The translations under genes were made by a program, and so were the position numbers. From Micrococcales bacterium (GTDB taxonomy: Bacteria; Actinomycetota; Actinomycetes; Actinomycetales; Microbacteriaceae): DNA of 34,254 nucleotides. Below the pieces are notes generated by a model. The model saw only the letters and a program-made list of their open reading frames with translations. It had not been told where the DNA came from and did no database searches. The first letter of the stretch is position 1, and each line of letters opens with the position of its first letter. This document shows positions 1,535-5,691 of the stretch, piece after piece. The stretch is taken from assembly GCA_947489135.1 (NCBI GenBank), contig CANLCU010000009.1, positions 1 through 34,254 of the forward strand, read 5' to 3'.

Positions 1535-1672
1535 TTCAGGTATTGTTGAGAAGCACCCGTCCGGCTGATTACAGGCGGCCGGGAGCACTGGCTAGTTACC
1601 CAAGCGGCCAAAGGGATCTGACTGTAAATCAGCCGGCTCAGCCTTCGGGGGTTCGAATCCCTCACTAGCCAC
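1535..1672. repeat. Left copy of 138-bp direct repeat (leader plus complete tRNA-Tyr)
   Basis: Matches 5554-5691 at a constant offset of 4019 bp. Differences seen only in GTTG (1545-1548) versus CTTT (5564-5567), i.e. 2 mismatches by eye. Confidence 0.93.
1590..1671 (+). tRNA. tRNA-Tyr (GTA), copy 1
   Basis: Acceptor GGCTAGT/ACTAGCC, anticodon loop CTGTAAA (GTA), long variable arm, T-arm GGGGGTTCGAATCCCTC. Confidence 0.94.
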
Positions 1673-1906: not shown

Positions 1907-2590
1907 TTATGGCACCTTCCAAAAATCCGACTTCCCATGGCTCGAAAATGGAGCAAGCATGGCTTTGTAAGAAGCTTGGTTTTTGTCCGATGTGTCGCTT
2001 GAGCGTCTTATGCAACCGGCGAACATGTCAGCAACCTGAATCAAAGAGTCGGTGTGAGATTTTACATAACTAACTTTTCTAATGAATTCAGTACCAGATT
2101 TATTCACCTCTGCCAGCAAGTATTTTCTAGCCGCAGACCTGTATTCTCGACTGCCTGTTCCATCAATTTTTACAGTGGCACCTTGGATAGTTCCTCCCGA
2201 ATTGGTTAGGACAAGTTGAATCACGTAGTTGTAGAAGGACTCAGTGCCATTTTGAAAGACATGCCTATCAATTGTTCTTTTATCCACCACTATGGATCGG
2301 ATAAAGAATAATTCAGGATTTAGCGAACTGAAGAATCTTTTCTGCAATTCGAGCTTTGTCTTGGAAAACTTAAATTCACTGTGACTTGACCTGCCAAGCT
2401 CATTACGAAGCTGTTTCACCAGGTGAGCAGTATGTTCTGCGTTCTCCGCCGACTCGAAGACGCAGCAAGCGATGACAAATAGATGGCTTGAACCGCTCTC
2501 AAGCTTGAAACCCGCATCGCCTGAGTCATCGATGAACACATACATTTGCTCAAGTGTAGGCGAATCATGCATCGAACGGCCTTCGCCCAA
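1907..2590 (-). CDS. DUF3800-type protein
   Basis: N-terminal MYVFIDDSGDAGF motif and later QVADMFAGCIRR typical of DUF3800 proteins. N-terminal start uncertain (possibly the internal M of MYVF). Confidence 0.8.
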   Translation of the reverse strand: MGEGRSMHDSPTLEQMYVFIDDSGDAGFKLESGSSHLFVIACCVFESAENAEHTAHLVKQLRNELGRSSHSEFKFSKTKLELQKRFFSSLNPELFFIRSIVVDKRTIDRHVFQNGTESFYNYVIQLVLTNSGGTIQGATVKIDGTGSREYRSAARKYLLAEVNKSGTEFIRKVSYVKSHTDSLIQVADMFAGCIRRSSDTSDKNQASYKAMLAPFSSHGKSDFWKVP

Positions 2591-2645: not shown

Positions 2646-3902
2646 TTACGTAAGTTGTCTAGCAGCTTCACGCTTCAGACTTACGCCAGCGGCATCAACC
2701 GAGTTGCGGTAGCACTCTAAAGCGTGATCTGATTGATCTAGGCCCTCGTAAACCTCTGCCATCTGAGCCCAGATTTTGGCTGTTGCACGAGACTTATTGT
2801 TGTCTTTTAGAAGTGAGGCAGCTTCAAGAAGGAGGTTCAGCGGCCGTGATTCAACTTTGCAAGCCAGAAGTACTTGAGCGTTGTCAACCAATCGCTCAGC
2901 TTTTTCCAGTTTTGGTAAGTGATTGCAGTAACTCAACGATTCATTAGCCTTTGAAACAGAACTTTCAATTTCCCCTCTCAGGAGGTAGGCCATTGCGAGA
3001 GTGTTCAGGGTGTTGGCAAGGTCTGCATCGCTTTTCTCTAGACCAAAGAGTTCAATTATTTGAAGTAAGTCTGCGATGTCGCTGTCACTAGGAACTCTGT
3101 TTGTCAGGCATGAAATAAAAATGGACCCCTGGATAAGGCGGGCCTGGGACATCTTGCGATCGAGCCCTGCAATAAGTTGGCTCGCACCTACAATCTGTTC
3201 TCTTGCTTGAACGAAGTCCCCGCGCTCATATGAAACCTGGCTTGCAGACCAAAGACCTACAACTGCGTCCCAGGTTGTGTCTACTGAATCTGGTCTGGAT
3301 TTGATCAATTCACTAGCTTTGGTCAGATCTCCAACCGCTAGGTAAACAGAGGAAAGAGTTGCTTTAGTTTCAAGCTGTAGTGATGTGGTGTCGAAGTTTT
3401 GCTGAGCAAGGTGTTCAAGGTGCTGCTGACCCCAATATATTGCTGAATAGAAATCGCCGTGATTTCTTTCAAGCCTTATTAAGCCCAAGACTGCTCGCTG
3501 GAGAGACTTGACGGGAAGCGATTTATTTCTAGCAGCGGTCTCTAATGCTGAAATCGCTACCTGGTTGTCTCCATCTCTCACAGCGATCAAACCTTGAAGG
3601 AGTAGGGCTTCATTCTCATTCTTGAGGCGTGGTAGCCATAGCTTGGCAGCCCGAGAGGAGTTGTTTTGAAGCTCCAGGCATGCCTGAAGTAACTCGGTTG
3701 ACTCAGATTTGCTCGGAGCGTCTTCGTCTGAAATGCCTAGTCTGAGGTGGATGGCCCCCAAGATCTCAGGGCTAGCATTTCGTTGACCGCGTTCTATAAG
3801 GGATAGGAGGCTAACCGAGCAAATGCCTTTAGCAGTATCTTCAAGGGACCGCCCAGCCCGAAGCCTTGCCTGCCTCAAATATTGTTTGTCAAAGTCTTTC
3901 AC
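2646..3902 (-). CDS. HTH (XRE-like) regulator with a long C-terminal TPR-like helical-repeat region
   Basis: N-terminal LRQARLRAGRSLEDTAKGICSVSLLSLIERGQRNASPEILGAIHLRLGI is HTH_3/XRE-like. The remaining ~350 aa is all-helical with TPR-like repeats (e.g. AKIWAQMAEVYEGLDQSDHALECYRNSVDAAG). GTG start. Confidence 0.8.
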   Translation of the reverse strand: MKDFDKQYLRQARLRAGRSLEDTAKGICSVSLLSLIERGQRNASPEILGAIHLRLGISDEDAPSKSESTELLQACLELQNNSSRAAKLWLPRLKNENEALLLQGLIAVRDGDNQVAISALETAARNKSLPVKSLQRAVLGLIRLERNHGDFYSAIYWGQQHLEHLAQQNFDTTSLQLETKATLSSVYLAVGDLTKASELIKSRPDSVDTTWDAVVGLWSASQVSYERGDFVQAREQIVGASQLIAGLDRKMSQARLIQGSIFISCLTNRVPSDSDIADLLQIIELFGLEKSDADLANTLNTLAMAYLLRGEIESSVSKANESLSYCNHLPKLEKAERLVDNAQVLLACKVESRPLNLLLEAASLLKDNNKSRATAKIWAQMAEVYEGLDQSDHALECYRNSVDAAGVSLKREAARQLT

Positions 3903-3916
3903 AAGACAACACTATC

Positions 3917-3947
3917 TTGACAAAATAGCTCAGAGAGCGTGTATGCT
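3917..3947 (+). promoter_or_regulatory. Putative housekeeping-type promoter for the peptide/secreted-protein operon
   Basis: TTGACA at 3917-3922 and TATGCT at 3942-3947, 19-nt spacer (longer than optimal). Confidence 0.45.
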
Positions 3948-3950
3948 CTT

Positions 3951-3975
3951 CATGTGTCAAAAATATTGACACATG
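3951..3975. promoter_or_regulatory. Perfect inverted repeat, likely regulator operator
   Basis: CATGTGTCAA-aaata-TTGACACATG: 10-bp perfect arms, 5-bp spacer, in the divergent intergenic region just downstream of the putative -10. Confidence 0.7.
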
Positions 3976-3994
3976 TGAAATACAAGGGGCCAAA

Positions 3995-4090
3995 ATGATC
4001 GAGTTTATTTACTTTCTCATCACTGGGGGACAATCGAGTCAATACGAAATCACGACAACAGGCACTCCTGTCTGCTGCGAGTTCGAATAA
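3995..4090 (+). CDS. Small ORF (31 aa), candidate signalling or modified peptide precursor: MIEFIYFLITGGQSSQYEITTTGTPVCCEFE
   Basis: Not in the supplied ORF track. ATG preceded by AAGGGG (3984-3989) at 5-nt spacing; TAA at 4088-4090; the next gene has the same AAGGGG RBS 18 nt before its GTG. Confidence 0.55.
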   Translation: MIEFIYFLITGGQSSQYEITTTGTPVCCEFE

Positions 4091-4108
4091 AAATAAAAAG
4101 GGGTAGCT

Positions 4109-4714
4109 GTGTCAAAAAAACAAATTGCACTGGCATTACTGATTCTAGGCATTGTGGGGTTTTCCGCCCAAGGTATCTATGCACAGGTGCAGAAATCAAA
4201 TTCAATCTCTCAATGGGACAATCTCAAGCCAAAACTAGAGGAAAGTCTTGCTGATGTCGGTGACGAGCAACTGGTCGAATCCTTGAGGGGAAGAATCGTA
4301 GAGCTCATGGAGGCAAGGGCTACTTTGTCGAACGTTGATGTGACAACTGCTCAAAGGACTGATCTGGAATCATCCTCAGAGATACGTCAGACCGTTGAAG
4401 AGCTGGTGTCAAAAGTTTGGACCTCCAGAAACCTAGCAAAAAGAACTGACGACATAGTAGCTGGTTGGAACATTGCAAAATTGCATCCAAACTATAGACC
4501 ATTTACAAACGCTAAGTACGTGTTGGATTCTTGGCAAGGAATACGAGTTGCGGAAGGCGGACTTTCAGCAGAAGCTATTGTGACAGGTACAATGACATAC
4601 GTTTACGACGACGGAGCTATCGCTGACAGCCTCGATCAAAGTCAAATTAAAGTTGTCAAAGAAAACGGAATTTGGCTCCTCGATGAAACTGTCATGGTGT
4701 ACGTGGGGCGATGA
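4109..4714 (+). CDS. Secreted/membrane-anchored hypothetical protein (possible NTF2-like C-terminal region)
   Basis: GTG start with AAGGGG RBS; N-terminal MSKKQIALALLILGIVGFSAQGIYAQ signal/anchor sequence. Confidence 0.8.
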   Translation: MSKKQIALALLILGIVGFSAQGIYAQVQKSNSISQWDNLKPKLEESLADVGDEQLVESLRGRIVELMEARATLSNVDVTTAQRTDLESSSEIRQTVEELVSKVWTSRNLAKRTDDIVAGWNIAKLHPNYRPFTNAKYVLDSWQGIRVAEGGLSAEAIVTGTMTYVYDDGAIADSLDQSQIKVVKENGIWLLDETVMVYVGR

Positions 4715-5406
4715 AATTGATGAAGAAGAGGACGGCCGTTCTAATTTCGGCAATTTTTGCCTTCCAGGCAGGGTGGGCTGGATCTTCGAGCGCAAGCACG
4801 TTGGGTTATACATACAACAGAGCAGCTGCAGTCGCCTATGCAAATAAGTGGTCATGCAATGGGAGCACATCATGTCGAAACGGCGATTACCAAAACCTTG
4901 GAGATGAAGACTGTACCAACTTTGTCTCTCAGGCTCTATTCGCCGGAGGCGTAACTGAAGTAAAAACTGGCCAGGGCTTCGAGCAGTGGTGGTACGACGG
5001 CTATGAAGGCCTATGGCTAATTGGACCCTTGAACCGCTCCCTAAGCTGGGGTCTGGTCACGAACCTTTCAACTCATCTACAAGCAACAGGAAGGGCCACC
5101 GGAGTTACTCTCACCAACATGACAACAAAGTACTCTGGAGCTCATTCCGCAGGCGGTGATATTTTTATGTATGACTGGGGGAAAGGCGAAGGCTATTCAC
5201 ACATGGCGTTATCTACTGGGCGTGAAACTTACTACCCGTATACAGATCCAATATACGGGTCTTACACAAACATCACCGGTGGTTCAGGAGATTCAATTTC
5301 CCAACATTCAACCGATAGGGATCATGCTCCTTGGAATTGGGGATATTGGACAACCACATTGGAATACCGCGCAAAATACAGGGTCAAGCTCCTAAAAATG
5401 AATTAA
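4711..5406 (+). CDS. Secreted putative amidase-domain protein (Amidase_6-like, Cys/His catalytic motifs)
   Basis: Overlaps the upstream gene by ATGA. Signal peptide MKLMKKRTAVLISAIFAFQAGWAGSSSAS; YNRAAAVAYANKW, EDCTNFVSQALFAGG, YSHMAL and SQHSTDRDHAPW motifs typical of amidase-domain proteins. Confidence 0.85.
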   Translation: MKLMKKRTAVLISAIFAFQAGWAGSSSASTLGYTYNRAAAVAYANKWSCNGSTSCRNGDYQNLGDEDCTNFVSQALFAGGVTEVKTGQGFEQWWYDGYEGLWLIGPLNRSLSWGLVTNLSTHLQATGRATGVTLTNMTTKYSGAHSAGGDIFMYDWGKGEGYSHMALSTGRETYYPYTDPIYGSYTNITGGSGDSISQHSTDRDHAPWNWGYWTTTLEYRAKYRVKLLKMN

Positions 5407-5553: not shown

Positions 5554-5691
5554 TTCAGGTATTCTTTAGAAGCACCCGTCCGGCTGATTACAGGCGGCCG
5601 GGAGCACTGGCTAGTTACCCAAGCGGCCAAAGGGATCTGACTGTAAATCAGCCGGCTCAGCCTTCGGGGGTTCGAATCCCTCACTAGCCAC
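5554..5691. repeat. Right copy of 138-bp direct repeat (leader plus complete tRNA-Tyr)
   Basis: See 1535-1672. Confidence 0.93.
5609..5690 (+). tRNA. tRNA-Tyr (GTA), copy 2
   Basis: Identical to the copy at 1590-1671. Confidence 0.94.

Follow-up and report, generated by a model that had tools for sequence, protein, structure and literature searches.

A candidate peptide-signaling pair of a Cys-Cys propeptide and a helix-turn-helix/tetratricopeptide repeat regulator in Actinomycetes

The locus and its genes

The window analyzed here is a 34,254-nt stretch of DNA (contig CANLCU010000009.1, positions 1-34,254; assembly GCA_947489135.1) from a Micrococcales bacterium of the family Microbacteriaceae. 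In it, a regulator combining a helix-turn-helix (HTH) domain with tetratricopeptide repeats (TPRs) stands divergent from an unannotated open reading frame (ORF) of 31 codons, MIEFIYFLITGGQSSQYEITTTGTPVCCEFE, which lies 93 bp away and ends in a Cys-Cys (CC) tail (Table 1). A gene for a 201-aa protein begins 19 bp after this ORF and is joined by an ATGA overlap to one for an Amidase_6 protein; all the ORFs that a first-pass annotation had described here were recovered at their positions. We propose that the regulator and the small ORF are probably a peptide-signaling pair that works like the RRNPP systems (Rap, Rgg, NprR, PlcR, PrgX, and AimR), with an exported pheromone and a cytoplasmic HTH-TPR receptor.

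Table 1. Features of the regulator-peptide locus and of the insertion that carries it
Feature	Position	Strand	Basis
HTH-TPR regulator, 418 aa, GTG start; proposed peptide receptor	2646-3902	-	Pfam HTH_3 (1.3e-7), HTH_31, TPR_2/TPR_12
25-bp interrupted palindrome CATGTGTCAA-AAATA-TTGACACATG; proposed operator	3951-3975	.	Perfect 10-bp arms
Ribosome-binding-like AAGGGG preceding the small ORF	3984-3989	+	Sequence
31-codon ORF; proposed signaling propeptide	3995-4090	+	Place, length, and Cys-Cys tail as at homologous loci
201-aa protein with N-terminal hydrophobic segment; first cargo gene	4109-4714	+	Sequence
Amidase_6 (PF12671) protein with N-terminal signal-like segment; second cargo gene	4711-5406	+	7.6e-22
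Left copy of 138-nt direct repeat, with tRNA-Tyr (1590-1672)	1535-1672	+	
Right copy of 138-nt direct repeat, with tRNA-Tyr (5609-5691)	5554-5691	+	
DUF3800 protein, within the insertion	1907-2590	-	6.5e-16; PADLOC candidate-defence model PDC-M04A (2e-13)

Small Cys-Cys ORFs accompany the regulator across the class

The two regulators closest to that of the window (35 and 34% identical), both from Microbacteriaceae metagenome-assembled genomes, have beside them the divergent 30-codon ORFs MSIFFDLLFAFLGTSNVSSVSGPMHCCSVA and MSIFLNLFIALVSGRTPSASSGPIHCCSAT. These share 13 identical residues after the Met, 8 of them encoded by different synonymous codons, and their changes at codon positions 1, 2, and 3 number 14, 7, and 20; hence, selection acts on the protein. 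A profile built from the first three peptides, when searched across the genus, returned nothing above background except those three, and the more distant peptides emerged solely from scanning regulator neighborhoods by a rule combining a short ORF, a ribosome-binding-like sequence, and a CC close to the end of the ORF. Every ORF returned by this rule from 185 kb adjoins one of these regulators. The scan revealed the peptides of more distant relatives, namely MKKFLRILLATTLVFATVQVGVSALGTGYKCCEIA in G008 and ...SGTGGAQPCCAI/GI in G021 and G031, and further ones beside the regulators of G062, G085, and G155. In all, 9 of 9 full-length Microbacteriaceae homologs have a divergent ORF of 30 to 40 codons, the product of which starts with a hydrophobic leader and carries Cys-Cys close to its C terminus.

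A profile of nine regulators recovered 22 more full-length loci in the order, 21 of them with such an ORF no more than about 350 bp away; in the exception, L147, the CC lies deeper inside a longer ORF. Two hits in this order survey that had been counted as "null" (L070, and L018, which is the same place as L142) both adjoin regulators and are therefore not background. With a second profile, homologous receptors were found in 77 of 297 sampled genomes of the class, and 26 of the 29 class-level loci read have, in divergent orientation, an ORF of about 40 codons with CC at its end (e.g., MARLRRVVAVTLAALTLTATAAIVATPASAAPVQPDWPGMCC and MGRAKRVVIAVVASFALMFTVSTPAVAAFAPTASPGDFCC). This class set is the fairest test, because the first examples had guided the design of the scan rule. 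Altogether, 56 of 60 homolog loci show the pairing, versus 0 of 37 control loci, which belong to other XRE proteins (Fisher test, 1.2e-22), a comparison in which the control loci are not G+C-matched and some homolog loci are near-copies. The adjacent conserved small ORF that the first-pass annotation had made a touchstone of its reading is thus present both within the genus and throughout the class.

The peptides of the relatives are 30 to 62 aa long, lie within about 350 bp of the regulator, and match no Pfam or NCBIfam family; such Cys-Cys ORFs are probably often missed by annotation. Most have Sec-type leaders with a basic n-region and AxA-type sites, as judged by eye and hydropathy. The tails after the predicted leaders are short (e.g., ...APVQPDWPGMCC, with class-level ends such as ...DWPGMCC) and variable apart from the CC. 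The ratio of nonsynonymous to synonymous differences (pN/pS) was below 1 in 9 of 9 compared peptide pairs, ranging from 0.11 to 0.73; at the level of such comparisons, the small ORFs of the relatives are coding and under purifying selection, which is indirect support for their translation.

The orientation of the peptide gene shifts between regulator clades, with the pairing kept throughout; in one clade the ORF stands ahead of the regulator gene itself. At L187, L192, L197, and L202, the regulator is flanked on its other side by a second CC-tailed propeptide (e.g., MKRRIVLAALVAVAGLAGTAVVAAGGVGATPGEVAPWNDDGVRDTPDGGSDFCC). In G391 (L070), a receptor lacking the HTH has a convergent CC peptide ending in VSIQPLSGCCRT. 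On a plasmid of Streptomyces sp. NBC_00342, a small secreted-type ORF (L172:4009-4269, minus strand) is convergent to an HTH-TPR regulator and encodes four (N/D)IGWP(V/N)A(P/A) repeats with no CC, which recalls propeptides with duplicated pheromone units.

These patterns bear on two other accounts of the small ORF. It could encode an exported effector, bacteriocin-like or redox- or metal-active, that is controlled by the regulator rather than being its ligand: vicinal cysteines could hold a metal or form a disulfide, and the window operon encodes further exported proteins. However, the one-to-one pairing with a TPR sensor survives the changes of orientation, the post-leader tails are very short and variable save for the CC, and at some loci a second CC peptide adjoins the same receptor, so that we consider an effector unlikely. 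The other account draws on the Cys-rich upstream ORFs of mycobacteria, which have been proposed as cysteine attenuators; here too, translation of a cysteine-responsive leader might control the downstream genes, given that the CC is close to the stop codon and that the next gene follows closely (about 70 bp off in G007, and closer still in the window). Against this stand the conserved hydrophobic leader and the purifying selection across the whole ORF, the lack of a shared co-directional downstream gene (the G008 peptide gene points toward a gene on the opposite strand), the clade with the ORF before the regulator, and cargo that is not of sulfur metabolism. Attenuation is accordingly a highly improbable explanation.

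The regulator and its proposed operator

An AlphaFold2 model of the regulator forms a TPR superhelix (mean predicted local distance difference test [pLDDT] score of 74.5, with low confidence in the HTH part), as the first-pass annotation had anticipated. Its best fold matches in the PDB are peptide-binding TPR proteins (LGN), with the Rap-CSF complex 4gyo at rank 46. In the regulator tree, the three proteins encoded on islands (see below) form one clade within a nine-member Microbacteriaceae clade. Among chromosomal relatives, L015, L066, L069, and L070 adjoin kynureninase- and tryptophan 2,3-dioxygenase-like genes, as judged from sequence.

The divergent operator suggested earlier is borne out as a sequence feature: between the two genes lies a palindrome whose 10-bp arms were matched by 0 of 2,000 dinucleotide shuffles. 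Further, TGTCAAAAATATT is common to the intergenic regions of the window and G001 (0 of 1,000 shuffles). We propose that the palindrome is the operator of the HTH-TPR regulator, which, because promoter calls at the locus are weak, might be either a repressor or an activator.

A tRNA-Tyr insertion with differing cargo

The regulator-peptide block sits within a 4,019-bp insertion at tRNA-Tyr, bounded by 138-nt repeat copies that are 99% identical and each hold a complete tRNA-Tyr gene. The empty site is seen in a relative, G079, in which a lone tRNA-Tyr lies between the same neighboring genes, with what appear from sequence to be a LacI-type regulator on one side and an EamA-type transporter on the other; it is to this one site that the window sequences to the left and right of the insertion align. 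Flanking direct repeats of tRNA sequence, together with a relative in which the site is unoccupied, are what is expected of an integrative element. Such an element would also be expected to have its own integrase, but no integrase-like ORF was found between 1673 and 5553, either in the ORF list or by a family search.

The same tRNA-Tyr is occupied in G001 and G007 by islands with a sister regulator, and G017 has a mini-island there. Islands at this site in G069 and G076 (L091, L092) carry integrase-like and defence-like genes, as judged from sequence; the site appears to be a hotspot for insertion throughout the genus. The cargo is unlike between islands: the window has Amidase_6, G001 a 339-aa exported protein, and G007 two other exported proteins and, past the regulator, a DRT4-like reverse transcriptase. 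This defence reverse transcriptase (PADLOC Drt4, 4e-98) lies at L014:9920-11497 (plus strand), equivalent to L065:7333-8910. Since the cargo differs in each island, the regulator-peptide pair appears to be a common controller whose exported cargo can be exchanged.

These islands also bear on the amidase, for which the first-pass annotation had offered two roles. That of peptide processor is not supported, as the same slot in two sister islands is taken by unrelated exported proteins; that of regulated effector fits better. The protein contains a DCTNFVSQ motif and has no real match among phages or in the PDB, and the structure model of the 201-aa protein was uninformative (pLDDT of 36); this protein might be an NTF2-like domain separated from an Amidase_6 protein. 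The accompanying picture of a tRNA-flanked accessory block holds for the window, but the system as a whole extends far beyond such a block, across the class.

A proposed signaling mechanism

Taking the pairing, the predicted receptor fold, and the palindrome together, we picture the following sequence of events. The small ORF would give rise to a propeptide that is exported and cut to a short C-terminal Cys-Cys peptide, which would re-enter cells via an oligopeptide transporter and bind the regulator's TPR superhelix. The bound regulator might then interact differently with the intergenic palindrome and thereby switch the operon comprising the peptide gene and the genes for the 201-aa and Amidase_6 proteins. 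In the window, the pair is carried on the tRNA-Tyr insertion, where the genes under its control would form a mobile cassette for exported proteins. In line with this model, genes for SBP_bac_5 (oligopeptide-binding) and M50 protease proteins are present in all three island genomes.

Several points weigh against this signaling model. SBP_bac_5 and M50 genes are common generally, and TPR folds bind many ligands. In plasmid records, including those of Streptomyces homologs, the pairing is patchy and at several is missing: the Streptomyces plasmid loci L164 and L171 have ...KDIPLCC directly downstream of the regulator, L166 (Nonomuraea) has ...MTGDAGCC divergent from it, and L165 has ...DLPLCC about 1.9 kb off.

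Further, the alignment between the window peptide and its two nearest relatives is only weak (p about 0.02), and an ORF this short could on its own be a chance reading frame. However, it agrees with the ORFs at 9 of 9 family loci in position, length, ribosome-binding-like sequence, and CC tail, against a background near zero, which largely refutes chance and leaves it an exceedingly remote prospect. Finally, the peptides of the window, G001, and G007 have no basic n-region or clear AxA-type cleavage site. Hence, these three might no longer be exported and might act on the regulator inside the producing cell. All three nevertheless retain a hydrophobic N terminus, and SHP and PrgQ, which also have no Sec tag, exit by PptAB (PMC10075063); we therefore hold purely intracellular action to be very unlikely.

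Relationship to known systems

The RRNPP signature comprises a receptor of 250 to 500 aa with TPRs and, in most members, a DNA-binding HTH, and an adjacent propeptide gene of 10 to 100 aa within -60 to 400 bp, the product of which is exported by a Sec signal or, for SHP and PrgQ, by PptAB (PMC10075063). In RRNPP systems, the mature peptide is then taken back up and bound by the TPR domain. In receptor length and domains and in the length and distance of the propeptide, the window pair falls within the bounds of this signature, with its 418-aa receptor (HTH_3 and TPR matches, modeled TPR superhelix) and a 31-aa propeptide 93 bp away. A profile search of PDB sequences gave generic TPR and HTH proteins and no sequence relationship to the solved RRNPP receptors; hence, although the pair appears to work like RRNPP, we do not file it in a known subfamily. 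The likeness to RRNPP extends to occurrence on mobile elements and to the apparent Sec-type leaders of most relatives of the window peptide, whereas the Actinomycete rather than Firmicute host, the Cys-Cys in the peptide tail, and the mostly divergent gene order set it apart.

ComRS and Rgg-SHP of streptococci pair an XRE-TPR regulator with a very short hydrophobic propeptide that has no Sec leader. The three island peptides resemble these in lacking such a leader but differ in having CC versus the WW of some XIP peptides. Arbitrium (AimR-AimP) is likewise a receptor-propeptide pair on a mobile element but differs in that there are no phage genes here. A viral or arbitrium origin was rejected, a search of IMG/VR with the regulator having given HTH-level matches only; the sole match in a phage collection, MT836207, was set aside because it is a fecal scaffold of unverified nature and the copy on it is partial.

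Implications

Signals of Actinomycetota are described as typically enzymatically made small molecules, and oligopeptide signals as a Firmicutes trait (PMC10075063), and in the papers searched RRNPP systems are described only in Firmicutes and their elements. No actinobacterial RRNPP system was found in this search, which did not take in preprints and most subscription papers, so that an earlier description is possible. The actinobacterial analogue of RRNPP that the first-pass annotation had surmised gains support from the conserved adjacent ORF and the TPR superhelix. There is perhaps an even chance of something broader, namely, a pheromone family throughout the Actinomycetes in which short exported peptides with an obligatory Cys-Cys, essential to signaling through disulfide, thiol, or metal chemistry, act on HTH-TPR receptors in a manner unlike that of the RRNPP pheromones known so far. 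In any case, the Cys-Cys peptides are apparently a large, undescribed family across actinobacteria, which suggests that peptide signals serve these bacteria in much the same way as they do Bacillus and Streptococcus. If true, a phylum with many antibiotic producers would gain a peptide language, and, as the tails are predictable from sequence, one could directly try synthetic peptides, for example, as triggers of silent genes.
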